Below are positions 1,449-20,230 of a stretch of 20,230 bases of DNA, one piece after another. Every line of letters begins with the position of its first letter. The stretch's first letter is position 1. Under the pieces are notes generated by a model. That model did not search any database and was not told the origin of the DNA. It saw nothing but the letters and a program-made list of their open reading frames with translations. The position numbers and the translations under genes were made by a program. The DNA is from a virus, in the IMG/VR virus record IMGVR_UViG_3300005511_000100, positions 1 to 20,230 of that record; one strand, given 5' to 3'.

Positions 1449-1464
1449 GGCGGCACTTCCAAAT

Positions 1465-2897: not shown

Positions 2898-2915
2898 TGT
2901 TACTCCTAAAAACTG

Positions 2916-3646: not shown

Positions 3647-3649
3647 GGC

Positions 3650-3823: not shown

Positions 3824-3825
3824 GT

Positions 3826-4134
3826 TCAGGCCGCCGGATCTTGGTTAGCGGATGCGATGGCCTGGGCGGCGACGATGGCCTGGGCCAGCAGCGCGTAGTC
3901 GATTGCGGCAGCTGCAGGCACAACTTGGACCGGCATCGGATGCTTGGAGGACAGGTATGCGTCGGACTTCTTGCATACCGGTTCCAGCTTGTGCGCATGC
4001 TGCGCGGCAGTCGCTTCGTCGAAATCAACTTCCTGGCCTTCGTAGTAGCTCGATTCCTGCACTTGTGGTTTGCCGCCGATCTCTACTACTTTGCGGTCGT
4101 GAACGACGAAGCCTTCGCGTACGATGAATTTCAT
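3826..4134 (-). CDS. Small phage structural-region protein, 102 aa, unknown function
   Basis: 102 residues starting MKFIVREGFVVHDRKVVEIG. The start has a good ribosome binding site (AGGAG, six bases before the ATG). The first 55 residues look like a small beta domain, including GQEVDFDEATAAQHAHKLEP. The C-terminal 35 residues are Ala/Val-rich (AAAAIDYALLAQAIVAAQAI), a probable helix. It lies directly downstream of the capsid gene behind a strong hairpin. It could be a head decoration, stabilising or head completion protein, but nothing in the sequence settles that. The N-terminal part shares a residue pattern with the next gene. Confidence 0.7.
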   Translation of the reverse strand: MKFIVREGFVVHDRKVVEIGGKPQVQESSYYEGQEVDFDEATAAQHAHKLEPVCKKSDAYLSSKHPMPVQVVPAAAAIDYALLAQAIVAAQAIASANQDPAA

Positions 4135-4157
4135 GTGTTACTCCTGAGTTGAATGGT

Positions 4158-4182
4158 GCGAGCGGCGCCCACCGCCGCTCGC
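4158..4182. other. Perfect 10-bp stem-loop between capsid and downstream gene
   Basis: GCGAGCGGCG at 4158-4167 pairs perfectly with 4173-4182 around a 5-base loop. No T tract follows on either strand, so it is not a canonical terminator. It lies 20 bases after the capsid stop and upstream of the next ribosome binding site. It may protect the 3' end of the capsid message or act as a processing or attenuation element. Confidence 0.5.
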
Positions 4183-4202
4183 GGGTTAAAGATGGCCAGC
4201 GA

Positions 4203-6320
4203 TTAGAAGCCTGGCGTCAGGGCATCGGACATGACCGAGAACGAGGCGCCATGGCGCACGCCGATGTCGGCGGTCTGGATGGCACGCAGCACGACGTCGC
4301 CCGACTTGAACAGGGTCGAATCGTAAGGGTTGATTGCGACTTCGATAGCGCCCCATTCCGCGATCAGAAGTTCCAGCCAGTTGCCGTAGATGATCTCGGA
4401 GCAGACGCCGACCGAAGTACCCTTCGTCAAGTTGCTGCGCAGCTGCTGCGACTCGCCATATGGCTTGCCCTTGATGCGATCCGGCGAGCCGGCAGTCAGG
4501 CCGCCTTGCGGGTCCCACAGATACTGGCCGGTGCTCGCCTTCAGGGTAGCCAGGTAGCCCAGCACTTTGCTGTTCATGGCAAACGCCATCGAGGTCTGCG
4601 CGGCGTTGGCCACACGCGGTGCGGTGTACAGCTTGATGATGTCGTCGAAGTCGACGTTCTTGCCGTTGGCGCCACCGATAACGGACAGGACACCGGCCTG
4701 GTTGGTGATGCCGGTCGGCGAGCCGCCAGCTCCGTTGCCCGACAAGGCTGCCAGGTCCAGGGCCAGCGCCATTTGCGCGATCAGGTCCACACGAGCCAGC
4801 ATTTCGATTGCCGGCGTCGCCTGCAGCATCATCATGCGGGAAATGATGCCCCAGCTGGTCAGGTTTTTCGGACGCAGCTGCACCTTATCGAAGGTCGCTT
4901 CGGACTCGGCGCCAGGCGTCAGCTCGCCGGCCCACGAAGCCTGCGCGCCGGTGATCTGGCGCGGGATATCGATGTTGCCCACCAGGCCGGACAGGAAGCG
5001 AGCGCCCAGGACCGGCGTCACCATCGCATTGCGCAGCACTTCGATGAAGCTGTCAGCCAGCAGCTCGGTAGCAACCAAGTTGCCACCAGTCGCCGGGGCG
5101 CCGACAGCGAAGGCGGAGCGCAGCTGCTGGTTCATGCGGCTTTGGCCGGCGATCAGCGAGAAAGCGCGCTGGTGCGCCTGGTCAGGAGCGAACGGCAGAT
5201 CGGAAGGCAGGAACATGCCTTCCGCCGAAGGGTTGCGCCCCAGTTGGCGTGCGATCTCGTTGGACACTTCGCGCTCGAACCCGGCATGTTTCCATTCCTT
5301 CGAGTGCAGGGCCTGCATACCGCGCAGCATCGAATAGCTACGGCGTTCCTTCTCGCTCATGTCCACGCGCGCGCCGGCCGCCGGGGTCTGCTTTTTCGGG
5401 TCATTCTCCAGGGCTTCCAGGAACGCGGAACGGGCGCCCTCGATACTAGTGCCGCCCTCGATCAGCAGCATCGCCAGGTCCTGGTTCTTCCATTTGTCGC
5501 CCAGGGCGCGGATCGCGGTCTGGCGTTCGCGTTCAGCGATGCGCATCTGCTCCTGCGTCAGGTGGATGACGGTCGGCGCGACGCCACCGCCGCCAGCTGG
5601 GGTATCGGCGGTAACTTGGTTCATCAGGATGTGCTTCTTTTTCATTGTGTCGTCCTCAACGATTACGGCAGGAGCCGGGGTGGTAGGGGTGGTAGTGCTG
5701 GGTTCAGTGCTGCGCACGCGCGTTTCGATACGCACGGCGCGGGCGTCTGCAGGAGTTGCAGCGCGCCCGACGCCGACAGTCGGGTCGGCAGGGATGGTGA
5801 CGAGCGAGATCTCGTACGCCAGCCAGCGCGGCGCGGTGTACGTGTCGTTGTCGCTGTAGCCGTTCGGGCTGTCGGTTTCGAGCACGTAATACTCGGGGTC
5901 GTACATGAAGGAGACATTGCGCAGGATGTTGTCCTGCACCATGCCCATCATTTCGTCGCCGCGTGCGGTCTTGGCGAAGCGCACGACGGCATGCCCGCGC
6001 TTGTCGGCGCCGATGGTCGCAGACTCAACGACGCCGATCACGTCGTCCGGGTTGTGGTTGAACAGCAGCGGGGCGCCGTCGTTCAACCGGGACAGGTCGG
6101 CCGCACCTGGTTCGTGAGACAGGATCTCCATTCCGAACCATCGCTCGACCGGCAGTTCGCTCGAAAAAGTCAGCACCAGGGTGCGGGCCTCCTCATCGAG
6201 CGCAGGCGCGTCTTGCGAACGGATCGACAGGAAGCGCCGCTGCGGCCCCAGCGCCGCGCCGTCGTCCAGTCGCTTGCGTACAGCTGGTTGTGCAGACGTC
6301 TGCACAGTTGGCTTTGACAT
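4203..6320 (-). CDS. Fused prohead protease / HK97-fold major capsid protein
   Basis: 705 residues combining two head genes. Residues about 30-190 match the HK97 prohead protease (U35) group: LLFNHNPDDVIGVVESATI at 85-103 with probable catalytic His89, and RNVSFMYDPEY at 134-144 with probable catalytic Ser137, then the usual WLAYEISLVTIPADPTVGVG segment. A Thr/Pro-rich linker lies at about 203-222. Residues 255-320 are charged and helical (delta/scaffold-like), and 355-705 are the HK97-type capsid (GGNLVATEL, DIPRQ, SWGIISRMMM and NPYDS are typical). The protease would mature the prohead and cut off the scaffold; the capsid part forms the shell. The start has GGAG six bases upstream. An internal in-frame ATG at residue 226 has its own ribosome binding site. 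Confidence 0.9.
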   Translation of the reverse strand: MSKPTVQTSAQPAVRKRLDDGAALGPQRRFLSIRSQDAPALDEEARTLVLTFSSELPVERWFGMEILSHEPGAADLSRLNDGAPLLFNHNPDDVIGVVESATIGADKRGHAVVRFAKTARGDEMMGMVQDNILRNVSFMYDPEYYVLETDSPNGYSDNDTYTAPRWLAYEISLVTIPADPTVGVGRAATPADARAVRIETRVRSTEPSTTTPTTPAPAVIVEDDTMKKKHILMNQVTADTPAGGGGVAPTVIHLTQEQMRIAERERQTAIRALGDKWKNQDLAMLLIEGGTSIEGARSAFLEALENDPKKQTPAAGARVDMSEKERRSYSMLRGMQALHSKEWKHAGFEREVSNEIARQLGRNPSAEGMFLPSDLPFAPDQAHQRAFSLIAGQSRMNQQLRSAFAVGAPATGGNLVATELLADSFIEVLRNAMVTPVLGARFLSGLVGNIDIPRQITGAQASWAGELTPGAESEATFDKVQLRPKNLTSWGIISRMMMLQATPAIEMLARVDLIAQMALALDLAALSGNGAGGSPTGITNQAGVLSVIGGANGKNVDFDDIIKLYTAPRVANAAQTSMAFAMNSKVLGYLATLKASTGQYLWDPQGGLTAGSPDRIKGKPYGESQQLRSNLTKGTSVGVCSEIIYGNWLELLIAEWGAIEVAINPYDSTLFKSGDVVLRAIQTADIGVRHGASFSVMSDALTPGF
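5643..5657 (-). promoter_or_regulatory. Internal ribosome binding site and in-frame ATG in the protease-capsid gene
   Basis: On the minus strand GAGGA (5653-5657) precedes an in-frame ATG (5643-5645) by seven bases. This would start a 480-residue product, MKKKHILMN onward, holding the scaffold and capsid parts without the protease. It lies exactly at the linker between the two domains, where a separate capsid start would be useful. Use of the site is inferred. Confidence 0.55.
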
Positions 6321-6330
6321 TCAAAACTCC

Positions 6331-6365
6331 AAAAGAAAAGGCCGCCGAACTTGCATTCGACGGCC
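6331..6365 (-). terminator. Rho-independent-type terminator between portal and protease-capsid genes
   Basis: Read on the minus strand, a 10-bp stem (6356-6365 with 6340-6349, one G-U pair, loop of six) is followed by TTTTCTTTT. It lies between the portal stop (6385) and the capsid gene ATG (6320). It is inside the late operon, so read-through would need antitermination, or the capsid gene must have another source of message. Confidence 0.65.
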
Positions 6366-6384
6366 TCGTGTTGGTGAAGCGGGG

Positions 6385-8022
6385 TTAATCGGCGCCGGTT
6401 GCCGCCTCCTCCTCGGGTTCCGATGCGGGGTTCGGATCGCCCGTGTTTCCTTGCCCGGTGTCGACTTCCTCGACCTCGGCCGCCTGACTGGCCCCCTTGT
6501 TGTCCGTCTGCCATGGATCGGATTCCATGACCAGGTTGTACTGCGCGGCGAGATCACGTTCCCGGCGCAGCTGCTTGAACACTTCTTCGTAGTCGCCGCC
6601 GCCTTCGCTGATAACGGCCTGCGCCGTGGTAAAGCCCGACCGCACGTTCATGCGATTGGCCGTCGCCTCCTTCAGCGGATCGACCGACTCCCAGCCGCGC
6701 GCCATCCACCGCACCTCGTTGTACAACTCGGGGTCGATTTCGTACGCCGGCAGATTGACCACACCGCATAGAACGGCCATTTCGAGCCACTTCTCGTAGA
6801 CCTCCTGCAGGAAGTTTTCGATCATCCAGTCCTGCAGGACACGCCAGTTGTCGCGGTCGTCCAGCAGCGCCAGGCGCGAGCTGGAGTAGTTCGACTGCGA
6901 GTAGTCGCGCGACAGCGATTCGTAGCTCAACCCGATGCCGGCTGATACCCCTCGCAGCATCAGCCGCATAAACGGGTCCATCTGGCCATTCGGGCGCGTC
7001 GGGTTGAAACCAGCGAAAGTCTCGCCAGCCTGCAGCTCCTTGATCGTTCCAGGCTCGAAGTCGTACACGCGCTCGCCGGCTTCGACACCATCGTCGCCTA
7101 TCGCATCGTTGCCCTCGGGCGACTGGATGAAGCCCATGACCGCCGCTGTGGCGCGCGCCGCGACGATTTCCGCCTCTTCGTATCCGCCCAGGTTGTTCAG
7201 GCGCTTGATGGCCGTGTGGAACCACGGCACGAAGCGCGTCTGCCCTACCCGCTCCGGGATGCCCAAGTGCAGCACCTCCTCCGCCGGCACGCGGATGTAG
7301 CGGCTGGCCACCGGAACGCCGGTGAACTGGTAGTCGCCTGGATGCTTCGGATAGAGGTAGTAGGCTGTCGGTCGGCCCCAGGCATCCACCTCCACGCCCA
7401 TCCGCACCTCATTGCCGTTCTCGGCGCGGCCGTTGTATTCGTCGACCAGTTGGTCGGCCTCGATGATCTCCAGGGCGAAGCGGACATTGCTGCCGCCGAA
7501 TGCCTGGTAGATGAAGCGGACCAGCACCTCGCCGGACTCGGCCACGGACGTGATGACCAAGCGCTGGATGTCTTTGAACGACAGCATGCCGGCAGTGTGG
7601 CAAGAGCGCTTGCGGCCCCAGCGTCGCCAAGCCTTCTCAAGTGCCGTGTTGGTCTTTTCGTCCAGCCGGTTGCCCCGGCGCATCATGACCTGGCCTTGGA
7701 AGGCGATCCCCTTGCCCACCACGTTATTCCGAATCGTGCGAATCGCGTTCTTCGCATAGTCATTGTCGCGGACCAGTTGGCGGGAGCGATTGCGCAGCGT
7801 GCGCAGGCTCATGCGGATCTCCGCATCTGCCGAGGTGTTCGTCGCTACCCAGTCGCTGGTTAGCCTGGTCATCTGGGCGCCGGCGTAGGCCCGCTTGCTG
7901 CGTCCGCGTCCTGCAGGCGGCGGGGGCGCCGGCTGCGTTGGAGGAGGAAGCGACGCGGGACTGCTACTCCTTTGCGGCGACAGCCAACCGGCCAGCCAGT
8001 TGCGTTGTTTAGCAAACATCAT
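6385..8022 (-). CDS. Portal protein, lambda family
   Basis: 545 residues, close to the usual length of lambda-type portals. The portal dodecamer forms the head vertex through which the terminase packages DNA. Recognisable blocks are the N-terminal basic region, AIRTIRNNVVGKGIAFQG at roughly 110-127, LVRFIYQAFGGSNVRFALEI near 180, DAWGRPTAYYLYPKHPGD, IRVPAEEVLHLGIPERVGQT, and the conserved LSYESLSRDYSQSNYSSSRL segment near 360, which is strongly characteristic of this family. The C-terminal tail is acidic and rich in Glu, Gln and Asn. Its ATG overlaps the stop of the upstream gpW-like gene, and AGG lies just upstream. A terminator follows. Confidence 0.93.
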   Translation of the reverse strand: MMFAKQRNWLAGWLSPQRSSSPASLPPPTQPAPPPPAGRGRSKRAYAGAQMTRLTSDWVATNTSADAEIRMSLRTLRNRSRQLVRDNDYAKNAIRTIRNNVVGKGIAFQGQVMMRRGNRLDEKTNTALEKAWRRWGRKRSCHTAGMLSFKDIQRLVITSVAESGEVLVRFIYQAFGGSNVRFALEIIEADQLVDEYNGRAENGNEVRMGVEVDAWGRPTAYYLYPKHPGDYQFTGVPVASRYIRVPAEEVLHLGIPERVGQTRFVPWFHTAIKRLNNLGGYEEAEIVAARATAAVMGFIQSPEGNDAIGDDGVEAGERVYDFEPGTIKELQAGETFAGFNPTRPNGQMDPFMRLMLRGVSAGIGLSYESLSRDYSQSNYSSSRLALLDDRDNWRVLQDWMIENFLQEVYEKWLEMAVLCGVVNLPAYEIDPELYNEVRWMARGWESVDPLKEATANRMNVRSGFTTAQAVISEGGGDYEEVFKQLRRERDLAAQYNLVMESDPWQTDNKGASQAAEVEEVDTGQGNTGDPNPASEPEEEAATGAD

Positions 8023-8591
8023 CGGAACCTCACCAAAACTTTGCCAGGGTTGCCCTGCCCGTTCGCTATGCGCTGGGCAGCCTTCTGGCGGTTGACGACC
8101 ATTCGCAGCCGGTCCTGCAGCGCCATCAGCGCCGCAATCGGCTCCTTCTTCAAGTTGCGGCTGCCGATGCTGTATTCGAGCGTGGCGCCGCCGCTGATCC
8201 GGCTACTGATCTCCGCCTTCACCGCGTCCAGGTCGCGCTCTTCTTGCGTACGTCCGTCGAACACGCCGTTCAGCGCGGCGAAGTTCGGCTTGACGATCAG
8301 CGTCCCTTCGCCGGCCAGCACTCGCTCGCCGGCCTTGGTGGCGTACGCCTGCCAGTACCAGGTTACGTTGCTTGCCGACGTGTTCAGCTGGGCGCTTTGT
8401 GCGGTGGTGATCGCTGTCGACCAGCCCGCACCGCTCGGCGTGGATTGCAGGTCAATGCCGGCAGTCGTCCCGCGTAGCGAGTACGACAGGCTGTAGGCGC
8501 TCGATACGAGGTTGCGCCCGTCACCGGTGCGAATGCTCGTATCGGTCCAGCTGGCGGAGTCACCAGCTGCAAGGGATGGAGGAATGTTCAT
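8019..8591 (-). CDS. gpW-like head-tail joining protein with an extra N-terminal domain
   Basis: 190 residues encoded between terminase large subunit and portal, the place of gpW in lambda-type genomes. Residues about 114-172 (GRTQEERDLDAVKAEI, then LEYSIGSRNLKKEPIAALMALQ) resemble the gpW family: two helices around a short hairpin with a conserved Tyr/Ser-Ile-Gly-Ser-Arg turn. gpW seals the portal after packaging. Residues 1-105 form a beta-rich segment (SASWTDTSI, YSLSYSLRG, VTWYWQAYA) not present in lambda gpW, which is only about 68 residues long. The start overlaps the terminase stop by one base (TAATG). The stop overlaps the portal start. The gpW identification is by pattern and position. 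Confidence 0.65.
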   Translation of the reverse strand: MNIPPSLAAGDSASWTDTSIRTGDGRNLVSSAYSLSYSLRGTTAGIDLQSTPSGAGWSTAITTAQSAQLNTSASNVTWYWQAYATKAGERVLAGEGTLIVKPNFAALNGVFDGRTQEERDLDAVKAEISSRISGGATLEYSIGSRNLKKEPIAALMALQDRLRMVVNRQKAAQRIANGQGNPGKVLVRFR

Positions 8592-10687
8592 TACCAGCTC
8601 GATACTGAGTAGCCTCCTCGCCGTGGAGGTGGCTTGATTGGTTTCTTGGCCACTGGCGCTTTCGCCGGTGGAGCTATAGGTTGCGGCGCCGGTTCGGGGC
8701 TATCTTCGGCGGCCGACTGCTGCACTTCTTCCTCCGCTGACTTGGCCGGCACCGGTGCGTCGTCCTCATCCTCGAAGAAGCCTTTCTGCCTGATCCGGTT
8801 TTCCAGCTCGGCCCAGTGATGCTCCTTGAACAGGTTCAGCTTCAGCGAACGCGCGGCGTGCAGGGCGTAGATCTCGCAGTCGGTACCTTCATTGCGCACG
8901 CCGGATTTCTTCTGCCACACCTTGCGGTTCCGCGCGGTGCGGTGCGGCGCCTTGATCTCGGCTGTGATCTGCTCCCAGTAGTCGGGGCGCACCGTCTTGT
9001 ACCAGTGCATCCGCCCTGGCCCCGTGCCGGTCAGCGGCATCCGGCCTTCGATCATCAAATCCTTGGCGCGCGTGGTGCCGACGATGTACGGCTTCAAACC
9101 GTACTTCCAAGCTTTGCTCTTCTTGTCGACGTCGACCGACTGGCCGGGTTTGGCGAAGATCTCGCGCTTGTCATCGCCGGTTTCCGATGCACCTTTGATC
9201 GCCATGTAGCCGCGCCCCTGGCGCGCACGCACATATGAGTAGACGGCGTCCGACGTCGTGCCGTCCGATGAGTCGACCGATACAGCGCGGATGCCCAACT
9301 TGGCGCCGCTGGCGTGTCGGAAGTCCTGCGTCAGCAGCGCATCCAGGTCCACCCAGGCGCCTTGCTCGGGGATCACGGTCACGCCGTGGATCTCGCCCCA
9401 GTAGACCAACCAGGATTCCTCGCCCCGACCCCAGGCCCGGATCACCACGGCCAGGCGCCCGTGCTGAACGTCGACGCCGGCTGTCAGCACCAGGCCGCCC
9501 CAAGGCACGGTCATTTCCTCGTAGTCCTCGGCGCGGGCTTTCAACGTCTCTTCGTCCGGCGTGTCCGACTGGTACTCGTAGGCCAGGCCTAGCGAGGAAT
9601 TCCAGAAGGCGATCATGGCGCCAACTTCGCCCTGGTTCATTTCATGCTGCGCGTTGAGGAACTTCTCCATCAGGCGCGTGAGCGTAGATTCCGGGAAGGA
9701 GCTGTACAACTCGTTCAGGTAGAAGCCAGCAACGCCACGAAATTCCGCAGTCGCGCGCCATTCGCCTTTGCGCACATTGCGGTTCTTGGCCGCGTCGTTC
9801 CATGCGGATCCACAGTGAGGGCAGATATAGGCGGCGGTGTCCGGCAGCGCCGTGCCGTAGATCATGTGTGTTCGGCTCTCGTCGTGCTGCACACGGACGT
9901 TCGCCCACTCCAGGACATGCGAATCGCCGCAGTCATGGCAAGGGACGTAGAAGTACCGCATGTCCGACAGTTCCATTTCCGCCGCGATGCTCGACACGCC
10001 CAGGATTGATGGCGTGCCGCCGACCAGGATCTTGTGGTCGCGGAAGGTCTTGACGCGCTCCTCGGCCAGCTTGATCGAATCGCCCTGGCCCTTGATGTTC
10101 AAGTTACAGTCATCCGGCTCCTCCACCACGACGTTCTTCAACGGCGTCGACTTCACGCCGCCGGTCGAGTTCGACCCGAACATTTTTAGGAAGCCGCCAG
10201 GGAACTTCTTGCGGTTCTGCGTGTTGTCGTTGGACCGGGTCTTGACATTGACGATCTCGGCCAGAACCGGCGTGGCCTCCACCATCGGGATGAACTTCTC
10301 GACGTTGTAATCCTTGGCGCTGCCGTCCTTCGGAAACATGATCCCGCTCGGCCCGGGATTGACGTGCATCGTGTAGCCCACGAAGTTGTTGATGACTCCG
10401 TCCGTCCATCCGACCTGGGCAGATTTCTGGCAGACGACTTTGCGCACTGCACGGTCGGTGATGCACTCCAGGATGCCGCGCAGGTAGGGAGTGATGGTCA
10501 GGCTGTACTTGCCTGGCAGCGCTGACGTGTCCGACGACAGCACGCGGTACTTTTCGGCCCAGGCGGCCACGGTGATCTTTGGCGGCGGCGCGAACTTCTT
10601 GACCGCCTTGCGCAAGAGCGCACGAAGGGGGTCAGTCGTCGTCGTCGTCGACTGGATCGTAGTTTGAGAGCTTGTGTAAAAATTCAT
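8591..10687 (-). CDS. Terminase large subunit (lambda gpA family)
   Basis: 698 residues from the chosen ATG at 10687, which has AGGA eight bases upstream; a longer reading to 10753 overlaps the small subunit more and begins with unlikely sequence. It is the ATP-driven packaging motor and nuclease. Visible motifs are the ATPase A motif CQKSAQVGWTD (about 86-96), the B motif VVVEEPD (186-192) and motif III-like VGGTPS (about 222-227). Two CxxC pairs (about 250-253 and 289-292) form a zinc-binding insert as in GpA proteins. The RNase H-like nuclease core has AGVDVQ (403-408) and VDSSDG (471-476). The C-terminal 70 residues are Pro/Ala/Glu-rich, as expected for portal contact. gpA-type enzymes usually cut at cos sites. 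Confidence 0.95.
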   Translation of the reverse strand: MNFYTSSQTTIQSTTTTTDPLRALLRKAVKKFAPPPKITVAAWAEKYRVLSSDTSALPGKYSLTITPYLRGILECITDRAVRKVVCQKSAQVGWTDGVINNFVGYTMHVNPGPSGIMFPKDGSAKDYNVEKFIPMVEATPVLAEIVNVKTRSNDNTQNRKKFPGGFLKMFGSNSTGGVKSTPLKNVVVEEPDDCNLNIKGQGDSIKLAEERVKTFRDHKILVGGTPSILGVSSIAAEMELSDMRYFYVPCHDCGDSHVLEWANVRVQHDESRTHMIYGTALPDTAAYICPHCGSAWNDAAKNRNVRKGEWRATAEFRGVAGFYLNELYSSFPESTLTRLMEKFLNAQHEMNQGEVGAMIAFWNSSLGLAYEYQSDTPDEETLKARAEDYEEMTVPWGGLVLTAGVDVQHGRLAVVIRAWGRGEESWLVYWGEIHGVTVIPEQGAWVDLDALLTQDFRHASGAKLGIRAVSVDSSDGTTSDAVYSYVRARQGRGYMAIKGASETGDDKREIFAKPGQSVDVDKKSKAWKYGLKPYIVGTTRAKDLMIEGRMPLTGTGPGRMHWYKTVRPDYWEQITAEIKAPHRTARNRKVWQKKSGVRNEGTDCEIYALHAARSLKLNLFKEHHWAELENRIRQKGFFEDEDDAPVPAKSAEEEVQQSAAEDSPEPAPQPIAPPAKAPVAKKPIKPPPRRGGYSVSSW

Positions 10688-11093
10688 CGAAGGCTTCCTG
10701 CAGTAGATCGCGCTTGCCCTCAGCACCTTCGGTGACTTCCAGCAGCTGGGCAAGGCGGTCAGGCTCGGCGCGGATGTAGGAACGCGCGGCGGCGACCATG
10801 CCCAACCAGGTTGGCTCGATCTGGTCGACCGGGATCAGCGTTCCGCGCTTGGTGGCGAGCGTCAGCTCCATGTCGTCGGCCTGCAGCCGGGTCAGCCTGT
10901 CGCGTTGCGTTTCCGTCTGCACCTTCGACAGCTCGCGCTGCACCATCCACCGGATCACATGGACCGTGTCGTACTCGTTGGCCAGGCCGTTCTGTTCGCG
11001 CTCGACCATCGGCATGCCGGACTTCTGCCATTCGGTCAGCGTCACGGTCGATATGCCGACAATTTCAGAGAGTTCTCGTTGGTTGACTATCAT
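10632..11093 (-). CDS. Terminase small subunit (Nu1-like)
   Basis: 153 residues. The N-terminus, MIVNQRELSEIVGISTVTLT, is a winged-helix DNA-binding domain of the Nu1 type: a first helix with 'Q-x-E-L-A-x-x-x-G-V-S', then a recognition helix before EWQKSGMP. Residues 50-100 are a charged helical region, and ARSYIRAEPDRLAQLL near 100-120 resembles the oligomerisation and large-subunit contact region. It ends in a run of aspartates. It overlaps the large subunit start by 56 bases. The small subunit recognises the packaging site and loads the motor. Confidence 0.88.
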   Translation of the reverse strand: MIVNQRELSEIVGISTVTLTEWQKSGMPMVEREQNGLANEYDTVHVIRWMVQRELSKVQTETQRDRLTRLQADDMELTLATKRGTLIPVDQIEPTWLGMVAAARSYIRAEPDRLAQLLEVTEGAEGKRDLLQEAFDEFLHKLSNYDPVDDDDD

Positions 11094-11192
11094 TTGGCCC
11101 CCACCAATTAACCCACGTGGGCTCGGAGATCTGGAGAATTTTCGGGGTCATGGCACCCGCGTGATCCCAACGCTAGGAAGGACCCGCCGAAT
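11094..11192. other. Intergenic region before terminase genes; possible cos site
   Basis: About 100 non-coding bases between the gpZ-like stop and the terminase small subunit start. It holds a perfect 10-bp palindrome CCCACGTGGG at 11112-11121 and GC-rich flanks. In lambda-type phages the cos site lies just upstream of the small terminase gene, so this is a reasonable candidate, but no cohesive-end sequence can be identified by eye. Confidence 0.25.
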
Positions 11193-11792
11193 TTATCGGG
11201 AGAGGTTCTTGATCTCATGCTTCAACCTTTCGACGAACTTCTCAGCCTGGAAGCGACGCATCACGTCCTGCACCTTCTCGTTCGCGTACATACCGCCCAC
11301 GCTTGGGCCATACAGTTTGCGTGCGGGCAGGCTATGCCAGCCACTACGGCTGCCACGCTTGTATTGCTTCTGCCGGCGCAGGATGATCTTACCGGCTGCC
11401 TTGTCTTCAATGAACACACCCGCCGCGCCGTTCAGGCGCTGGGCGATGAAGGCCCCCTTAATCAGCTTGGCCTGCCCATGGATGCGAACGGTGACGCCGG
11501 CCTTGTTCTCGCGCGGGTTGAAGTCCATCAGGCTTTTAGTCTTACGCCGAACCTTGATACTCGTCACCAGGTTGGTCGCCGACGCCTTGCGCTGGTACAT
11601 GGCCGCCTTGATCTCCGACGAGCTAACGTTATAGCCCTCGTCCCGCAACTCACGCGATGCCTGTGTGATCGACATGGCGCCGACTCGGTTGAGTGCCCTT
11701 GGAATGGCCTTCTCAAGCACGGCCTGCCGCTTCTTCACGATATCGGCAGCGATCTTGTCGACGCTACCGCGTACGTTTAGGACGAATACCAT
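11193..11792 (-). CDS. Minor tail protein Z-like (prophage gpZ family)
   Basis: 199 residues. The N-terminal half has the family pattern of a long helix (VDKIAADIVKKRQAVLEKAI) followed by PRALNRVGAMSITQASRELR, then a hydrophobic strand region with VRRKTKSLMDFNPRENKAGV. The middle part contains GAFIAQRLNGAAGVFIEDKA, and the C-terminus ends in a basic helix. Lambda gpZ and its relatives help the tail tip assemble and join heads. In lambda the gene lies among the tail genes, but here it is placed before the terminase, immediately after the early-region terminator, so it is probably the first late gene. The ribosome binding site is weak. Confidence 0.75.
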   Translation of the reverse strand: MVFVLNVRGSVDKIAADIVKKRQAVLEKAIPRALNRVGAMSITQASRELRDEGYNVSSSEIKAAMYQRKASATNLVTSIKVRRKTKSLMDFNPRENKAGVTVRIHGQAKLIKGAFIAQRLNGAAGVFIEDKAAGKIILRRQKQYKRGSRSGWHSLPARKLYGPSVGGMYANEKVQDVMRRFQAEKFVERLKHEIKNLSR

Positions 11793-11809
11793 GCTTGAAT
11801 CCGGAAATG

Positions 11810-11834
11810 AAAAAGCCCGCAGGGCAGCGGGCTT
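11810..11834 (-). terminator. Strong terminator at the early/late boundary
   Basis: On the minus strand an 8-bp perfect stem (AAGCCCGC type, 11827-11834 with 11813-11820) with a 6-base loop runs into five T residues. It lies after the candidate late regulator gene and before the gpZ-like gene. It is the natural barrier that a late antiterminator would overcome. Confidence 0.8.
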
Positions 11835-11869
11835 GATAGATTAATTCTCCCGGCGTGCGAACGCCTCCA

Positions 11870-12439
11870 TCAAGGAAGCGTCGTATCGACGGAAGGCACG
11901 GGACACCCCGGCAGGCAAATTTTAGATGCGATAGTAGCCGTCGGTTCCAGCTTTTTCAAGATCGCAACCAAATTATTTCGTGCGCGTGCGCAGACCAACT
12001 TAACGTGAGGGCCACGAACGCCTACAAGGTGACGTCGAATCGACGACTCTGGCCACTGGTGAATGTACAGGAACTTGAGTGCTTGACGCTCGTTGAAATC
12101 CGGCAGCATGCGCCACGCTGCCTCCACAAGCCAACCGTCCAGCTGATCGGCTGCTACCAGGCCTCCCAATGGTTTGATCTTCTGCTCGACGAGGTCGGAT
12201 GCTGGGGGAGCCTCCGACACCCGTAGCGCAACATACCAACGTGCCCAACTCGCACACACCGCGCCACCTCCACTTGCTCCGCTTCCTCTGACCACTCTTC
12301 GCCAATTGTCCATTCGCGCGACGAACTGCGAACTCTCGTTGTTCCCTGACCGATCCGGCTGACGCGCCTGGGAGCACGCTACAACCGCTACGTCGTCAAT
12401 CTTCTCGTAGGCTACGCCTTCAACTTCAATTACTTCCAT
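11870..12439 (-). CDS. Candidate late gene regulator (antiterminator Q-like, HTH)
   Basis: 189 residues, last gene of the leftward early operon and immediately upstream of a terminator, the place of Q in lambdoid phages. Residues about 107-160 (AAWRMLPDFNERQALKFLYI, then a segment with SSIRRHLVGVRGPHVKLVCA) look like a sigma-region-4 type helix-turn-helix: 'L-x-x-x-E-R-x-A-L-x-x-x-Y' then a recognition helix. Many phage late regulators of the Q, ArpU or RinA groups carry such a domain near the C-terminus. The N-terminal part is Ser/Gly-rich and not recognisable. The start has an AG-rich ribosome binding site. Function is inferred from location and the HTH-like part; a simple early-operon protein is the alternative. 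Confidence 0.5.
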   Translation of the reverse strand: MEVIEVEGVAYEKIDDVAVVACSQARQPDRSGNNESSQFVARMDNWRRVVRGSGASGGGAVCASWARWYVALRVSEAPPASDLVEQKIKPLGGLVAADQLDGWLVEAAWRMLPDFNERQALKFLYIHQWPESSIRRHLVGVRGPHVKLVCARARNNLVAILKKLEPTATIASKICLPGCPVPSVDTTLP

Positions 12440-12574
12440 CCCCTACTTCCTTTCCTCATTCGCCCATGCTTCCGATATTCCCGCTCCCTTGGCTATTCAC
12501 TCAAGTTCGTCCAACCTTAGTTTGGTTAGCCGAACTGGTTGGACGCCACAAACCCTTACAAATCCTTGGTTCGT
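12440..12574. other. Non-coding stretch between small coupled gene and late regulator
   Basis: 135 bases without a gene, carrying four copies or near copies of the GTTGGACG-type repeat and the ribosome binding site of the next gene. I see no convincing promoter or terminator in it. Confidence 0.5.
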
Positions 12575-12787
12575 CTAACCTCCCAACCTACCTAACCTAC
12601 TTTTGATTCTTACCAAACGACGCAATGACCCGTCGCGTACGTATGCGTGTCGCGCACGTATGCATGCGCGCTGTGGTGTGCGAGGTTGGACAGTTGGACG
12701 GAGCAAGTAACCATGCGGGTTTGCGCCGTCTAGCCTCAAATCCGGCAGGTTGGACGAACGTCCAACGTTGGCCTGATCAGCTGGACG
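12505..12787. repeat. Iteron-like cluster of a 12-bp repeat (GGTTGGACGAAC)
   Basis: Exact copies lie at 12748-12759 (direct) and 12505-12516 (inverse). An 11/12 inverse copy is at 12569-12580. Partial copies occur at 12524-12535, 12537-12545, 12684-12691, 12693-12700, 12759-12766 (inverse) and, more weakly, 12781-12787. The copies at 12749-12766 form a perfect palindrome with 8-bp arms and a 2-base centre. Density and mixed orientation suggest protein binding sites, such as a replication origin or regulator sites, beside the primase-helicase gene. Confidence 0.7.
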
Positions 12788-12892
12788 CTTTGCCTGTTCG
12801 AACACCTTTTCCGCATGCACAAATTGCGCACACGATCCCTGGTGCCGCACGAAGCTCATGCCAGCATTGAGATTGCATTCAGGACCGCTCAT
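12575..12892 (-). CDS. Small unknown protein translationally coupled to the primase-helicase
   Basis: A 105-residue frame whose ATG (12892) overlaps the primase-helicase stop (ATGA). The first 50 residues (MSGPECNLNAGMSFVRHQGS, then CAQFVHAEKVFEQAKRPADQ) look like genuine protein with normal codon use. The second half is Arg-rich and low in complexity, overlapping the repeat cluster and an alternating purine-pyrimidine tract, so the reading may be under constraint from DNA sites. I do not recognise a family. The coupled start is the best argument for a real gene. Phage origins embedded in a replication gene are known (lambda O), which would fit this arrangement. Confidence 0.45.
   Translation of the reverse strand: MSGPECNLNAGMSFVRHQGSCAQFVHAEKVFEQAKRPADQANVGRSSNLPDLRLDGANPHGYLLRPTVQPRTPQRACIRARHAYVRDGSLRRLVRIKSRLGRLGG
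12634..12671. other. 38-base alternating purine-pyrimidine tract
   Basis: From 12634 to 12671 purines and pyrimidines alternate with a single break (12650/12651), with GCGTAC, GTATGC, GCGCAC and GCATGC steps. Such tracts can adopt left-handed or easily distorted helices. It lies in the middle of the iteron-like cluster. Confidence 0.6.
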
Positions 12893-15420
12893 TGGGCCGC
12901 TCCTTGATCGGCAGCCGCGCCCCCATTGATGGCAGCCGGACGCTCGTAATACCATTCACGCGCGCCTGTTGGCTCGCGCTTCTTTGACCATCCAAACTTG
13001 CGCATGATCGCCCCCACGCGCATCGTCTCCGCACGCGCAGGTCCAAGCTTCGACAGTTCGAAGTGCAGCGCCTTCGTAAGGATTTCGCGCGCTGTAACAC
13101 GCTTGATTTTTCCAGACAGCGTCGGTTTTTTGTCGGAATCAATGCCTTCCAAATACTCGTAGATTCGTCCGCGCCAAGGATCCGGAATTTCCCTATCGTC
13201 TTGTACCGGCCCGATCAGCCGTTGTTGTTGCTCAAACGTGGGCCACCACTTGACGCCCTGGCGCATCAGCGCAATTGCTTCTCCGAATAGTTGATCGCGA
13301 TCCGCTGCCAGGCTTTTGAGGTCAATCCACCCCGTCTCTACCGGCCAGAACCGACGGTTACCTGTCGCATCCTTGAAATATGCATCTTCATTTGTTGTAG
13401 CGGCGAATGCGCATCGGCGCGGTACATTTTTCATCCTGCGGCCGTATGGCTCGCGGAAGCGGTCCACCGTGCTCGACATAAATGCCTTGATCGCAGTTAC
13501 CTCGGACCGATTGAACTGCTCCAACTCGGCAACTTCGTAAAGCCATACACCTTGGATCGACAGGAAGCCATCCTTGTCACCCATTCGGAAAGGTGTGTCG
13601 GCAAACCAGTCACCTCCCAACACTTTCAGCGCTGTAGATTTGCCTTGCCCTTGCCCGCCTTCAAACACAGGCGCATGGTCATTCTTCACGCCTGGCTTGT
13701 AGCCTCGCATCACGATCCCGATGAAGAACATAGTCGATACCAATCGCATGTACTCAGAATCCTCTGCACTCCAATAGCGTGACAGGGCGGTTGCTACGCG
13801 GGCTTGGCCGTCCCACGCGCTTTCGCAGTGGTCCAGATAGTCCTTCACAGGGTCGAAGCTATGCTCGCGAGCTGCTTGTGCGACACCGCGCTCAATATCG
13901 CCAATCGACGCCAGGACGAGTCCATAGTTCTGCGCCAGGTACATGCCGAGGCTAAAGTCATCTGACTCGGTCCATTCCCCGGGTGCCGATTGCCATGGGG
14001 TGGCGCGGCGCTTCATCTGGAGCCCGGAAAAGAGATCCAAGCCGACCAATCCTTGAAGTTTGGCGTCATGGCACATTACAAGGTAGACGTTCTCGCGGCA
14101 TCCTTTGATACCGCCGTTAGCCGTCGGGATCAGTCTCTCTCTCAATTCACCGGCCGAGAGTCCTTGCGCGGCGCTAGCCGGCCGTGGGGTAGAAGCCAGT
14201 TCCGTATTCGCGCCTTCGTCCAGCCATGCCGGAACTTCGCTGTCTGGAACGGAATCTACCGAACGCTCGGCTTGCGCGTGCAAGGGGTCTTTGTCCTGCT
14301 GCGCAAGCACATCGTGACGCAATCGCGTCACCCAGGCGACAACAGCGTCGGCGCCCCCGCCCTCATCAATCAGGTCGGCAACGTCCCAACCATCAGGCAC
14401 TTCGCCAGGTCGCGGGATGTCGACGAAGAAAACGTTGCAGCCCTGTTTGCCTAGCACCTCCGCGACCATTTGCATCGCCATCATGCCTGGCTGTTCTGAC
14501 TCGGGCTTGAGCTGGCCTTCCTTAGCGTGGCCCTTCTTGTAGCACTTCGCGTCCGCGTCTGGCCACAAGATCACATCGCAATCGCGGACAGCAGACCAAT
14601 CGGTCTTCTCTACCGCCTTGCCGCCGCCAGGCCATGAAATTAGATCGAACTCTGCCCCGACGAGGGCGTGCGCCTTGTCGGCACATTTCTCCCCTTCTAC
14701 CACCAGCTTTGGAACGCCCGCACGCAGAGCACCTTGCAAATATAGTGGACGCGGCTCCGGGAAGCTGATCCAACGCCACTCTCTTGCCTTCGTCTCAGGA
14801 TGTTGCGCGAATACGCACGGTAGGACTTCTTTGCCACCGTCGGAAGTCGTGAAGCGATACACGACGCCCAACAAGCGCCCTTCCTGGTCTTTATACTCCC
14901 AGGTTGCATCTGGCCGACCGCGCACCACATGAGCTTTGGGATATGGCCCTGCGTTGCTTGGCACCGGCAGGATCGGGCTCCAGGGAGTTTTCTTCTTCAC
15001 GGCCGGATGCGCTTCTACCCCACTTCGGGCTGGCGCAGGCGGCGGAGTCTTTGGTTTGGCCTGCGGCGCTGGTGTCGCTGATCGCGATGACGCTTTCGCC
15101 TTCCAGTCAGGATTGTCGGTCAAAGGCACGCCCAACACTCCAGCGAGCTGCGCGCATGCCTTGCCTTGCGAAAGTCCGTGGATATGCGCATACAGCGAGA
15201 TGAGGCCGCCGCCAGCTTCGCCGTCAGCGGAGAAGTCGGCCCAAAAGCCCGCCTTCTCGCCAACCAAACGAACGCGCATTGATTTTCCGGCCTCACCAAA
15301 ACGTGAGCCGATGCAGAACTCAGCGCCTTCGCGCACGCCGTTCGGGAACCACTCCGCAAGCAAGGAATCTATTGAGCCAAGTGCCGCCGACTCAACCCGA
15401 CCAAAATCGTCAAGTGTCAC
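12889..15420 (-). CDS. Primase-helicase with TOPRIM and VapE-type ATPase domains
   Basis: 843 residues with a GTG start overlapping the preceding stop (GTGA). The N-terminal 100 residues resemble the zinc-free primase-associated region of phage primases. A Pro/Ala/Lys-rich linker lies at about 115-150. A TOPRIM-like domain at about 235-365 has VVEGEKCADKA (240-250) and WPDADAK (286-292). The C-terminal domain (about 500-800) is the virulence-associated E / superfamily 3-like ATPase: Walker A GGQGQGKST (588-596), Walker B VWLYEVAELEQ (625-635), and the sensor region TNEDAYFKDATGNRRFWPVE (676-695), where the arginines are typical. It would prime and unwind DNA at the phage origin. It is the only clear replication enzyme in the window. 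Confidence 0.92.
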   Translation of the reverse strand: MTLDDFGRVESAALGSIDSLLAEWFPNGVREGAEFCIGSRFGEAGKSMRVRLVGEKAGFWADFSADGEAGGGLISLYAHIHGLSQGKACAQLAGVLGVPLTDNPDWKAKASSRSATPAPQAKPKTPPPAPARSGVEAHPAVKKKTPWSPILPVPSNAGPYPKAHVVRGRPDATWEYKDQEGRLLGVVYRFTTSDGGKEVLPCVFAQHPETKAREWRWISFPEPRPLYLQGALRAGVPKLVVEGEKCADKAHALVGAEFDLISWPGGGKAVEKTDWSAVRDCDVILWPDADAKCYKKGHAKEGQLKPESEQPGMMAMQMVAEVLGKQGCNVFFVDIPRPGEVPDGWDVADLIDEGGGADAVVAWVTRLRHDVLAQQDKDPLHAQAERSVDSVPDSEVPAWLDEGANTELASTPRPASAAQGLSAGELRERLIPTANGGIKGCRENVYLVMCHDAKLQGLVGLDLFSGLQMKRRATPWQSAPGEWTESDDFSLGMYLAQNYGLVLASIGDIERGVAQAAREHSFDPVKDYLDHCESAWDGQARVATALSRYWSAEDSEYMRLVSTMFFIGIVMRGYKPGVKNDHAPVFEGGQGQGKSTALKVLGGDWFADTPFRMGDKDGFLSIQGVWLYEVAELEQFNRSEVTAIKAFMSSTVDRFREPYGRRMKNVPRRCAFAATTNEDAYFKDATGNRRFWPVETGWIDLKSLAADRDQLFGEAIALMRQGVKWWPTFEQQQRLIGPVQDDREIPDPWRGRIYEYLEGIDSDKKPTLSGKIKRVTAREILTKALHFELSKLGPARAETMRVGAIMRKFGWSKKREPTGAREWYYERPAAINGGAAADQGAAQ

Positions 15421-15836
15421 GCGGTGGCTTTCTTGGCTGTGGATTTAAATGGGACCTCAACCCCGCCCATCACAGAAGGGTGGTCGCGGTAATCAAACGC
15501 GCCAGGGCGCACGACCATAGGGCTGCGACTTCTCAGTGGCCGAAAGCCTCCACCTACTCGCGGAGCGGCGGGAATGCCAACGTACTTATCTTGCTCGGGC
15601 ACGATGCCCAGGTAGCGCTGGCCATTGATTGTAATGGTGACCTTGTCGAATTCGACGCGAGCCAGACCTGCAACGCGAACGCGCGTCACAACCTTGTCTT
15701 CGAAGTCGTGCAAGGAATCCTTACGGTCGACAAGGTTACGCAGCTCGTCAACGGTCGCAGTCCCGCCCAACTGTTGAAGCATCGCCACACATTTTGCGGC
15801 GCGGCTGCCTTGACGCGGGAGATCATGATTAGACAT
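15417..15836 (-). CDS. Small early-operon protein, unknown function (139 aa)
   Basis: 139 residues. The start at 15836 is preferred because GGGAGG lies six bases upstream; it overlaps the upstream gene by eight bases. The N-terminal half (AAKCVAMLQQLGGTATVDEL, then RNLVDRK and RVRVAGLARVEFDKVTITI) looks like a winged-helix domain: a helix, a second helix and a beta wing ending in a hydrophobic strand. It could therefore bind DNA, perhaps assisting replication together with the primase-helicase, to which it is translationally coupled. The C-terminal half is Pro/Arg/Gly-rich and basic. I do not recognise a named family. Confidence 0.6.
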   Translation of the reverse strand: MSNHDLPRQGSRAAKCVAMLQQLGGTATVDELRNLVDRKDSLHDFEDKVVTRVRVAGLARVEFDKVTITINGQRYLGIVPEQDKYVGIPAAPRVGGGFRPLRSRSPMVVRPGAFDYRDHPSVMGGVEVPFKSTAKKATA

Positions 15837-16341
15837 TGGCGGCCTCCCGCGCGGCAATTACGGGGCTCGGCATCGGATAGCTAATCAGTTCCATCAGGGC
15901 CGTCATTTCGCTGATGGTTTTGTGCATGCGCCATCCAATTTCGCGCAGCGCGGCACGCTCCTTCGCATCGATGATGCCGTCCTCTTTGGCAGCCCGCCAT
16001 GCGCGCGACAAGTCGCCAAGTTCCTCATTCAGCTCAAAGAGTTTGTCATGGACCTCGTCGTCTGAAAGGTCGCCAGGTTGAGGCAGTTCACAGAACACGC
16101 CGCCACTCGCTTGCGCGACTGCCTGCGCAAAATGCGTGGTGCCGGCGTAGCGCTGGATCAGCAGTGCGGTATCGACACGCATGCCGCTGCCCTTCACTTC
16201 ATACACCCGTTGTTCGAGCGCGGACTTAGTCAGGCCCAGGGTTGCAGCAGTTCCGGCCCAGCCATGAACCTTGATCATTTCTTGGTATGCAGCTAACAAC
16301 TCCACAGTATCGTCCTTTAGTTCTTGGGTTTCAGATAACAA
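15829..16341 (-). CDS. YmfL-like putative regulatory protein (CII-position)
   Basis: 170 residues from a TTG start at 16341. Residues about 16-55 (AAYQEMIKVHGWAGTAATLG, then LTKSALEQRVYEVKG) form a helix-turn-helix matching the YmfL group of prophage regulators. Its C-terminal part (ALREIGWRMHKTISEMTALM) has the family's 'H-K-T-x-x-E-M/L' helix. It is the second gene after the leftward promoter, following the Cro-like gene, the position of cII in lambda. It may regulate lysogeny or early gene expression; related proteins lack a firmly established role. The ribosome binding site at the TTG is poor, so expression may depend on translation of upstream message; an ATG at 16278 is an alternative but would remove part of the first helix. 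Confidence 0.7.
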   Translation of the reverse strand: MLSETQELKDDTVELLAAYQEMIKVHGWAGTAATLGLTKSALEQRVYEVKGSGMRVDTALLIQRYAGTTHFAQAVAQASGGVFCELPQPGDLSDDEVHDKLFELNEELGDLSRAWRAAKEDGIIDAKERAALREIGWRMHKTISEMTALMELISYPMPSPVIAAREAANV

Positions 16342-16731: not shown

Positions 16732-16771
16732 GCACTGTTTATCTTTTTGGTCATTTATCTTTTCGGTAAAA
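16704..16771. promoter_or_regulatory. Operator cluster with three copies (OR-like)
   Basis: Three copies of a TTTATCTTTTnGGTAAA motif: 16704-16722 (inverse), 16737-16753 and 16753-16771 (direct). They lie between the divergent Cro-like and repressor genes. Spacing and position match repressor and Cro operators. Confidence 0.75.
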
Positions 16772-16797
16772 ACGTTGATCATCCGGGGATGGGACCA

Positions 16798-17535
16798 ATG
16801 AAGAGAGAAGACATCCGGCGTGAAAACGCGCGAAAACTCGCAGCTGATGCTGGCGGGCTGACGGAATTCGCCCGTAAAACCGGGATGGAGAACTCTCAAG
16901 TCAGCCAGCTCATTGGAAAGAACCCAACCAAAAACATCGGCAACATAGTTGCAGCCCGAATCGAGAACGCCTTTGACCTTGTTGAAGGCTCTTTAGACAT
17001 TGCGCCGCAACCCGGGGCAGTCGAGCAATCCGAGATTTCGTCGAACCGCACCGGCGCCGATGCAACTATCTTCCCAGGCGCTCGCCCAATCAGGGTTGAG
17101 GACGAGAATTCGCCACATCTTCACCCGATTCCGAAAGTGACGTTGAAGCTCCAAGCAGGTGTAACCGGTTTTGAAACTGAACCCGATATGCGTGACGGCG
17201 GCACGCTGGGTATTTCTCGTTCGTGGATTGAGCGAAAGGGCTATAACCCTAAAGACCTGGTCGCAATCCAGGTACGCGGTGAAAGCATGGAACCGACGTT
17301 CTATGAAGACGATACGGTCGTCATCAATCTTGCGGACACAAAGCTAACTGACAATGGCGTCTATGCCGTCAATTACGAAGGCGAAGCTGTAGTGAAGCGC
17401 CTTTCTCGAGACGCAGGTCAATGGTGGCTTATGTCCGACAATCCCGATCAGCGCAAATATTTCCGGCGTGCGTGCCAGGGGAATCGCTGCATCATCGTTG
17501 GCCGCGTAGTCCGTCGCGAAGGCGACAACTTCTAG
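16798..17535 (+). CDS. CI/LexA-type phage repressor with S24 self-cleavage domain
   Basis: 245 residues from ATG 16798, preceded by GGGGA eight bases upstream; ATG 16789 is an alternative. Residues about 1-65 are a lambda-repressor-type DNA-binding domain (LTEFARKTGMENSQVSQLIG with a following helix). Residues 110-240 are a LexA-like peptidase: Ser163 in RGESMEPTFYEDD and Lys200 in EAVVKRLSR form the catalytic dyad, and Ala120-Gly121 (KLQAGVTG) is a likely autocleavage site. It would hold the early promoters shut in the lysogen and be inactivated by RecA-stimulated self-cleavage after DNA damage. It is the only rightward gene between the two operator clusters. Confidence 0.92.
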   Translation: MKREDIRRENARKLAADAGGLTEFARKTGMENSQVSQLIGKNPTKNIGNIVAARIENAFDLVEGSLDIAPQPGAVEQSEISSNRTGADATIFPGARPIRVEDENSPHLHPIPKVTLKLQAGVTGFETEPDMRDGGTLGISRSWIERKGYNPKDLVAIQVRGESMEPTFYEDDTVVINLADTKLTDNGVYAVNYEGEAVVKRLSRDAGQWWLMSDNPDQRKYFRRACQGNRCIIVGRVVRREGDNF

Positions 17536-18624: not shown

Positions 18625-18903
18625 ATGAACGCATTCAAGAACCATACTTCCATTGTCGCGCAAATGAGCCCGATGCCAGCTGAACAGGTGATCGCCAGCC
18701 TTGTTAGCGAGTTGCTGGCCGCCGGTCAAATACTAAACGCGCTACATCACTATTCGCCGATGTCTTCGCTGCTGCATGCCATGGCTGATTTGCAGCAGCG
18801 CAACATCATCGAACAAGACCTTTTACGCGTCCCAGAGCGCAAAGCAGCTCTAAGCATGGCCAAGAATTTCGGGTCCACAGCTTTCAAGAAGGAGAATCGG
18901 TAA
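18625..18903 (+). CDS. Unknown small early protein, third gene of PL operon (92 aa)
   Basis: 92 residues from ATG 18625, with GAAAG nearby as a weak ribosome binding site. A GTG at 18607, overlapping the previous stop, is an alternative and would add six residues. The sequence is helical: PMPAEQVIASLVSELLAAGQ, ILNALHHYSPMSSLLHAMAD, LQQRNIIEQDLLRVPERKAA, with a basic C-terminus. It might form helical dimers. No family recognised. Its stop overlaps the next ATG (TAATG), so the four genes are one translational unit. Confidence 0.6.
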   Translation: MNAFKNHTSIVAQMSPMPAEQVIASLVSELLAAGQILNALHHYSPMSSLLHAMADLQQRNIIEQDLLRVPERKAALSMAKNFGSTAFKKENR

Positions 18904-19118
18904 TGAAGGCTGCCATGTTTTTAGTCCTCAAGTATGACCGGATGTTCATGCGCCTAGAAGAGATATGTGCCGAAATTGACATTTCGGTCGGCACTGCACG
19001 CAACAAGATGAGCGCTGGAACCTTTCCGATTCCTACCCGCAAATCCGGCAAACATGTGATTGCCGACGTACGCGATGTTGGCAAGTATCTTGATGACTGC
19101 AGGTTGGGCCCTGCATAG
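18903..19118 (+). CDS. Small winged-helix DNA-binding protein (PrtN- or excisionase-like)
   Basis: 71 residues. It begins MKAAMFLVLKYDRMFMRLEE and continues ICAEIDISVGTARNKMSAGT, then FPIPTRKSGKHVIADVRDVG and a final helix. This follows the PrtN/AlpA pattern: a short N-terminal strand ('FLxxxY'), a helix-turn-helix with 'L-x-x-I-C', a Gly-x-Phe-Pro-Ile-Pro turn into the wing, and a last 'D-V-x-x-Y-L/I-D' helix. Relatives either activate prophage/pyocin genes or act as directionality factors for excision. As the last gene of the early rightward operon near the attachment site, an excisionase role is attractive but unproven. A terminator follows. Confidence 0.65.
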   Translation: MKAAMFLVLKYDRMFMRLEEICAEIDISVGTARNKMSAGTFPIPTRKSGKHVIADVRDVGKYLDDCRLGPA

Positions 19119-19119
19119 C

Positions 19120-19175: not shown

Positions 19176-19640
19176 TCAGGCAATAATCTCTCCAGAATCT
19201 AAGTATGCTTCTGCGATTTTCGCAAATCGCTTCATTTGCAAGCTATCTTGAGTAGTCTTCATATCTGCAATCTTATGCGCGTCAGGCTCCGGGAGCACAT
19301 AGATTAGTAGAAATTCAGTATTTTTTCCGTTTGCAACATACACAAGGACGCGATTGCTGGTCTTTTTCGCTCCTTTCCCATTGTGGACGCCGCGGTCATA
19401 GGCTTTGTCCCAGCTTTTAAGTGCAAGCTGATCGGTAATTGGGACTAAGTGAACGTGTCGAAGTGCATATTGCTGAAGACCAACGGCGGGCGTCCTATAA
19501 CCGCCATCTTTTCCAAATAAGTAGTGCCCGTATTCGTCGCCTGACTTCCATTCAATGAAGCCATCGATCAGCTCGTCTGCATCATCCGGTCCCTGAGCGT
19601 CTAAAAGCGCCTTAAGGGCTTTGGTTATTTCAACCTTCAT
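19176..19640 (-). CDS. YafO-family type II toxin (putative ribosome-dependent mRNA interferase)
   Basis: 154 residues. The family pattern is clear: EYGHYLFGKDGGYRTP (36-51, YafO 'FGRD..Y'), LRHVHLVPI (60-68, YafO 'H-I-H-L'), NRVLVYVANG (96-105), LLIYVLPEPDAHKIAD (111-126, YafO 'L-P-E/P-H-x-x-A'), and a C-terminal MKRFAKIAEAYLD helix (136-148). YafO inhibits translation by ribosome-dependent mRNA cleavage. Classical YafO is about 130 residues; this one is longer in the middle (KAYDRGVHNGKGAKKTSN). It is convergent with the PL operon. No recognised antitoxin is adjacent: the upstream small gene is separated by about 100 bases and a terminator. It may be a lysogenic (moron) gene. Confidence 0.8.
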   Translation of the reverse strand: MKVEITKALKALLDAQGPDDADELIDGFIEWKSGDEYGHYLFGKDGGYRTPAVGLQQYALRHVHLVPITDQLALKSWDKAYDRGVHNGKGAKKTSNRVLVYVANGKNTEFLLIYVLPEPDAHKIADMKTTQDSLQMKRFAKIAEAYLDSGEIIA

Positions 19641-19668: not shown

Positions 19669-19708
19669 AAAAAAAGCCGCTGAACCGCAAATGCGGACCA
19701 AGCGACTT
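19669..19708 (-). terminator. Terminator between the small upstream gene and the YafO-like toxin
   Basis: On the minus strand an 8-bp outer stem (AAGTCGCT with AGCGGCTT, one T-G pair; 19701-19708 and 19674-19681) encloses a 4-bp inner hairpin (CCGC-ATTT-GCGG) and is followed by seven T residues. A second hairpin with a UUCG-type loop (about 19719-19730) precedes it. This should limit read-through into the toxin gene. Confidence 0.7.
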
Positions 19709-19744
19709 TTCAGCCATACCGCCGAAGCGGCAACTAGCGATAGA

Positions 19745-19939
19745 TTATTCTACGACAATGTGCGCAAACGCCTTGAAGGCGGACTCGGCGCTAAATGCTT
19801 CATTCGAATAGATTCGACCAAAAGCAGCTTTTCGCTTTTCCGAAATCGAAGCTGCAGCTTTAGCCGAGGTCGAACGGCCTGATGCCCCGCCGATCCGATG
19901 GGCCATGAAAGCCACCTTCATCAATTTTTTCTTCCTCAC
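19745..19939 (-). CDS. Small basic protein, unknown; possible toxin partner
   Basis: 64 residues from GTG 19939, which has AGGAG six bases upstream; a longer frame reaches 19984 and an ATG at 19921 is another candidate. The sequence is Ala/Lys/Ser-rich: MRKKKLMKVAFMAHRIGGAS, then GRSTSAKAAASISEKRKAAF and GRIYSNEAFSAESAFKAFAH. It is too short and simple to identify. It lies upstream of the YafO-like toxin, separated by hairpins, and beside the attachment site, so it may be an antitoxin, an unrelated accessory gene, or not a gene. The start and a fair -10 box argue that it is expressed. Confidence 0.45.
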   Translation of the reverse strand: MRKKKLMKVAFMAHRIGGASGRSTSAKAAASISEKRKAAFGRIYSNEAFSAESAFKAFAHIVVE

Positions 19940-19950: not shown

Positions 19951-19980
19951 GTGGGGTGATCCCCAATGCAAAGCATTCTA
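19951..19980 (-). promoter_or_regulatory. Possible promoter and hairpins upstream of the small basic gene
   Basis: A TAGAAT box (19975-19980, minus strand) with a poor -35 (TTAAAG) 17 bases upstream. Two short inverted repeats follow: AATGC-AAA-GCATT, overlapping the expected transcript start, and GGGG-ATCA-CCCC, just before the ribosome binding site. They could be an operator and a translational control hairpin. Confidence 0.35.
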
Positions 19981-20106: not shown

Positions 20107-20178
20107 TCACTCGGTCCAATCCATCATCGGCGCCACGGAAAGGCGGCGGGAAGGCTTGGGGACGATCGAGGTGGTCAT
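20107..20178 (-). pseudogene. dusA: 5' end of host dusA, interrupted by the prophage
   Basis: From ATG 20178 on the minus strand the frame reads MTTSIVPKPSRRLSVAPMMD then Trp-Thr-Glu and a stop. Ser-Val-Ala-Pro-Met-Met-Asp-Trp-Thr-Asp is the conserved N-terminal motif of DusA, the flavin enzyme that reduces uridine 20/20a in tRNA (the motif is near the FMN site). Here the match ends at the codon after Thr, where Asp would be expected, followed directly by a stop in unrelated sequence. The remaining dusA should be at the far end of the prophage. The 23-residue peptide is very unlikely to be functional. DusA N-termini are known prophage integration sites. Confidence 0.85.
20108..20135. other. 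Prophage attachment junction in dusA (attL or attR)
   Basis: Homology to dusA stops at about 20111. The crossover lies in the part encoding Ala-Pro-Met-Met-Asp-Trp-Thr. The core cannot be delimited without the other end or an empty site. Confidence 0.7.
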
Positions 20179-20207
20179 AATGCAAAGGTCAACGAAAGGG
20201 GCTGCAC

Positions 20208-20213
20208 ATTATA
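20208..20213 (-). promoter_or_regulatory. -10 box of the dusA promoter
   Basis: A perfect TATAAT on the minus strand (20208-20213), about 30 bases upstream of the dusA ATG. The -35 would fall at or beyond the window edge. It would now transcribe into the prophage end. Confidence 0.55.
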
Positions 20214-20230
20214 CAGGCACCCGCCATCCC

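Follow-up and report, generated by a model that had tools for sequence, protein, structure and literature searches.

A prophage edge in the dusA gene of an Oxalobacteraceae bacterium and the YafO-like gene pair behind it

The virus record IMGVR_UViG_3300005511_000100 of IMG/VR ends in what appears to be the start of dusA, a bacterial gene for tRNA modification, with its promoter facing the viral genes, which raises the questions of how a host gene start came to lie at the edge of a phage and whether its promoter serves the YafO-like toxin gene nearby. We analysed the complete record (exactly 20,230 bases, its left end cut inside the tape-measure gene), referred to here as the window; feature coordinates are collected in Table 1. 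The end of the window is best read as the edge of a prophage that was inserted in dusA by the known DusA-associated mechanism, a reading to which we assign a probability of roughly 0.94. From the published mechanism and the re-headed dusA of a homologous prophage, dusA is taken to be re-headed here too, i.e. given new first codons, rather than simply broken.

The stranded dusA start

Read on the reverse strand, the final 124 bases of the window contain a frame (MTTSIVPKPSRRLSVAPMMDWTE) that opens with an ATG at 20,178 and closes with a stop codon at 20,109–20,107. Its first 22 codons are those of Oxalobacteraceae dusA (MTTSIVPKPSRRLSVAPMMDWT), and after the host identity ends a single further codon precedes the stop (E*). 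With the last 246 bases of the window as query, matches were obtained in 170 of 393 genomes from this bacterial family; every match inspected corresponds to the first codons of dusA, and nearly all of the matches listed end at or close to query base 120. The best match, to an uninterrupted dusA in genome G199, is 98% identical over query bases 5–120 (116 bases) with E = 5e-52, and is therefore not due to chance. The N-terminus of the G199 protein is identical (MTTSIVPKPSRRLSVAPMMDWT) and then goes on DRHCRHFHRL, whereas the DNA identity stops after window base 20,111, directly behind the codons for MMDWT. Thus, the dusA-like N-terminus with a TATAAT box that the initial annotation had placed at a prophage end is confirmed, and the uninterrupted gene with which it was to be compared exists in a related genome. 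Upstream of the TATAAT box the record has only 17 further bases, which leaves the −35 region outside the window; a recognisable −35 element was found before dusA in none of the five Oxalobacteraceae relatives examined, though the −10 is conserved.

The insertion lies in the 5′ end of dusA at a conserved attachment (att) sequence, which places the element among the dusA-specific prophages and islands described by Farrugia et al. in 2015 (PMC4482086), in agreement with the earlier remark that dusA is a known integration target. Those islands and the present case have in common the targeting of the dusA 5′ end, the original 5′ end stranded at the outer boundary and a PrtN/RdfN-like gene (carried by about 64% of dusA-specific prophages and genomic islands); an element-supplied replacement dusA start is seen in a Duganella relative. 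About half of the published elements are prophages. The phage body and the host are different, and no integrase is visible in the record of the window.

A pattern scan of IMG/VR covering at least 120 loci revealed that re-headed and stranded dusA starts are both common. A different Oxalobacteraceae genome (L050 1524; G024) has another stranded dusA start that ends MMDWTE*, with unrelated sequence behind it. A rule that the phage att site always gives an immediate stop (WTE*) was considered and dropped, as the distance to the stop varies across dozens of stranded starts.

Both junctions of a homologous Duganella prophage

The prophage of Duganella sp. Root336D2 (locus L031) is collinear with window positions 2526–19,148 at 68–83% identity, and one of its ends carries the same stranded MTTSIAPKPSRRLSVAPMMDWTE*. 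Approximately 39 kb farther on the same contig, a 346-amino-acid tyrosine integrase (L035 340–1380, minus strand) is divergent from a complete, re-headed dusA (L035 1417–2454, plus strand) that starts MIQSMSENRIAIEGKAEQSGVQASRRISVAPMMDWTDRHC and has its first codons from the phage. This phage-supplied start reads MIQSMSENRIAIEGKAEQSGVQASRRISVAPMMDWT and is unrelated to host dusA upstream of the att core, which is identical between the two ends of the prophage (Table 1). On joining the host flanks by script, a dusA of 332 codons is obtained in which 317 of the 332 positions equal those of the intact Duganella sp. CF458 gene. The Duganella integrase matches those of phages BcepMigl, BcepIL02, DC1 and mEp460 at 38–39% over 91–95%, and these phages are listed by Farrugia et al. 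as carriers of the DusA-associated integrase family (PMC4482086). Integrases that share 55–57% identity with that of the Duganella prophage occur in three phages with a related primase (L021, L022 and L023), whose records showed neither a dusA motif nor a Dus domain.

The other junction and the shared core that the initial annotation had looked for were thus located in the Duganella homologue, with the second junction of the window's own prophage lying outside the record. The annotation was off the mark in expecting a dusA remainder at the other end, where the homologous prophage has a complete gene re-headed by the phage, an arrangement also reported in PMC4482086 and PMC8409611. A reporter fusion in the latter study showed that dusA is still expressed, more weakly, from the promoter brought by the element; the new N-terminus of dusA was also tested, and the PrtN-like RdfN was required for excision (PMC8409611). 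The Vibrio elements of that study, IMEVchUSA3 among them, resemble the present case in that a PrtN homologue, RdfN, is the excision factor and several carry toxin–antitoxin genes, but they are IncC-mobilised islands and not phages.

Taken with the published mechanism, these junctions are best explained by a temperate phage, its host an Oxalobacteraceae bacterium near Duganella, that used a DusA-associated tyrosine integrase to enter dusA at a conserved 27-bp stretch encoding the end of VAPMMDWT. Recombination will have stranded the host promoter and the first 22 dusA codons at the end far from the integrase, where phage sequence closes the frame with a Glu codon and a stop codon. At the other end, outside the record, the prophage of the window would have the same second junction as its relative, the phage supplying a new promoter and new first codons such that full-length, functional DusA is probably still made. 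The PrtN-like gene at 18,903 is the likely excision factor.

The YafO-like gene pair and the host promoter

Behind the stranded start lie a small gene and a YafO-like gene, which form a two-gene unit at 19,176–19,921 (minus strand) in the window, 4646–5395 in L031 and 1183–1929 in L192. The larger gene carries a YafO toxin domain (PF13957, 35.9 bits; cut-off 25), and in the NCBIfam YafO equivalog model (NF007377) it reaches 34.6 bits against a cut-off of 153. The small gene gave no family match in PHROGs or NCBIfam for the window and L031 copies, nor in Pfam for the window copy. Its counterparts occur upstream of YafO-like genes in L031, L192–L196, L201–L204 and possibly L208, and have in common a loose C-terminal pattern, F..I.....F(T/S)...A..AFA.I. 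This recurrent adjacency makes the small gene a candidate for an undescribed antitoxin family with a putative neutralising role.

The two genes of the window are separated by a strong terminator-like hairpin. In L031 (4850–4954), L192 (1384–1488) and L208 (about 1403–1506), the gap of ∼105 bases holds an equivalent hairpin whose sequence differs; the weakest of the four hairpins is at −14 kcal/mol, a value reached by about 2% of random pieces. In other loci with the gene pair, a ∼10-base gap or an overlap leaves no room for a hairpin. With the hairpin in this position, the toxin may be attenuated in comparison with its partner; a search of the literature for terminators that separate the antitoxin and toxin genes of type II systems gave nothing directly comparable by title or abstract. 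The pair resembles the YafNO system of Escherichia coli in having the YafO domain in the larger gene, but differs in that the small partner matches no antitoxin family, the score is far below the NCBIfam equivalog cut-off, and four loci have a terminator-like hairpin in the space that separates the two genes.

The initial annotation was correct in that the host promoter faces inward, with the small gene and the YafO-like toxin on the same strand. It had further proposed that this promoter could feed the toxin locus in the lysogen, which would couple toxin–antitoxin expression to host growth. We consider this unlikely. The stub, the small gene and the toxin do lie close together on one strand, in both the window and the Duganella relative, and on that strand of the window no terminator-like match was found between stub and small gene. 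In L031, however, a terminator-like match stands directly behind the stranded start, and in the window and three relatives the hairpin separates the small gene from the toxin. The pair also has a weak candidate promoter of its own, although a scan of 19,100–20,230 gave no full sigma-70 match, and the same gene pair is present at other chromosomal and phage positions. Finally, at 26 prophage ends with enough flank, the first open reading frame (ORF) behind the stranded dusA start runs with the promoter in 14 cases and against it in 12, which gives no orientation bias, although the ORF heuristic is crude and some loci are near-duplicates. Feeding of the toxin locus by the host promoter is thus geometrically possible and without comparative support. 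It is quite improbable that, in this lineage, the stranded promoter adds to transcription of a YafO-like unit with an undescribed small antitoxin family, its toxin restrained by the intergenic terminator, and that integration switches the unit on. In the reading we prefer, a prophage edge in a re-headed dusA, the stranded promoter would be a by-product, and any read-through into the pair would be incidental, with a terminator in its path ahead of the toxin.

Phage gene content and standing of the prophage reading

Table 1. Positions, strands and supporting evidence of the features of the window
Feature	Position	Strand	Evidence
Phage body: tape measure, head, portal, terminase, primase/helicase	3..15857	−	Gene-family matches; collinear with L031 at 68–83%
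CI-like repressor with S24 peptidase domain	16747..17535	+	Gene-family matches
Excisionase (PrtN/RdfN-like) gene	18903..19118	+	phrog_1300 excisionase, E 3.7e-6; PF11112 PyocinActivator only E 0.059, below cut-off
YafO-like toxin (phrog_1651)	19176..19640	−	PF13957, E 8.5e-9; 48% identical to L031 homologue
Terminator-like hairpin and U run between small gene and toxin	19669..19710	−	Sequence folding; equivalents in L031, L192, L208
Small gene, 58 aa, candidate antitoxin	19745..19921	−	ATG at 19921, preceded by GAGGAA; a GTG frame starting at 19984 is longer
Possible −10 (TAGAAT) of the pair's own promoter	19975..19980	−	−35 weak (by eye, 3 of 6)
Host dusA 5′ end, stranded: 22 codons of dusA followed by E and a stop	20107..20178	−	98% identical to intact G199 dusA up to 20111
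Attachment-site core, 27 bp, CGTGGCGCCGATGATGGATTGGACCGA	20111..20137	−	Identical between both ends of homologous Duganella prophage; consistent with 21-bp semiconserved att repeat of PMC4482086
TATAAT box, host dusA promoter	20208..20213	−	Sequence; box conserved at this position ahead of dusA in five Oxalobacteraceae genomes

The gene set of the window is that of a temperate tailed phage, with head, portal, terminase, primase/helicase, CII-like, CI-like and excisionase-like genes. Megablast of the window against phage records gave no match. The YafO-like protein as sole query found no IMG/VR relatives, whereas the primase did.

Some observations weigh against insertion in a re-headed dusA. 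No integrase gene was found within the 20,230-base record; this gene and the second junction of the prophage lie outside it, and the re-headed arrangement is taken from a relative of 68–83% identity. Among the 20 first-found primase-carrying IMG/VR relatives, no dusA motif was detected in the fetched stretches and no Dus domain in the records, and several of the 20 carry integrases at the other end. That the fragment is instead the phage's own dusA-like start carried at attP, as phages of this kind do carry one (Duganella relative), is very improbable, as identity to host dusA extends far beyond the att core and across the host promoter, which makes this end host DNA and not the phage's att copy, and the phage-supplied start of the relative is unrelated upstream of the core.

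The window thus adds another Oxalobacteraceae phage lineage to those that use a known docking site and re-heading mechanism, as an ordinary example of what has been described, and the Duganella relative indicates the expected look of the missing half of the prophage. The small-gene/YafO-like pair with its built-in terminator is a modest lead for toxin–antitoxin work. The chief lasting benefit lies in practice: stranded dusA starts mark prophage ends, and under this mechanism the gene receives a new head and is not destroyed.
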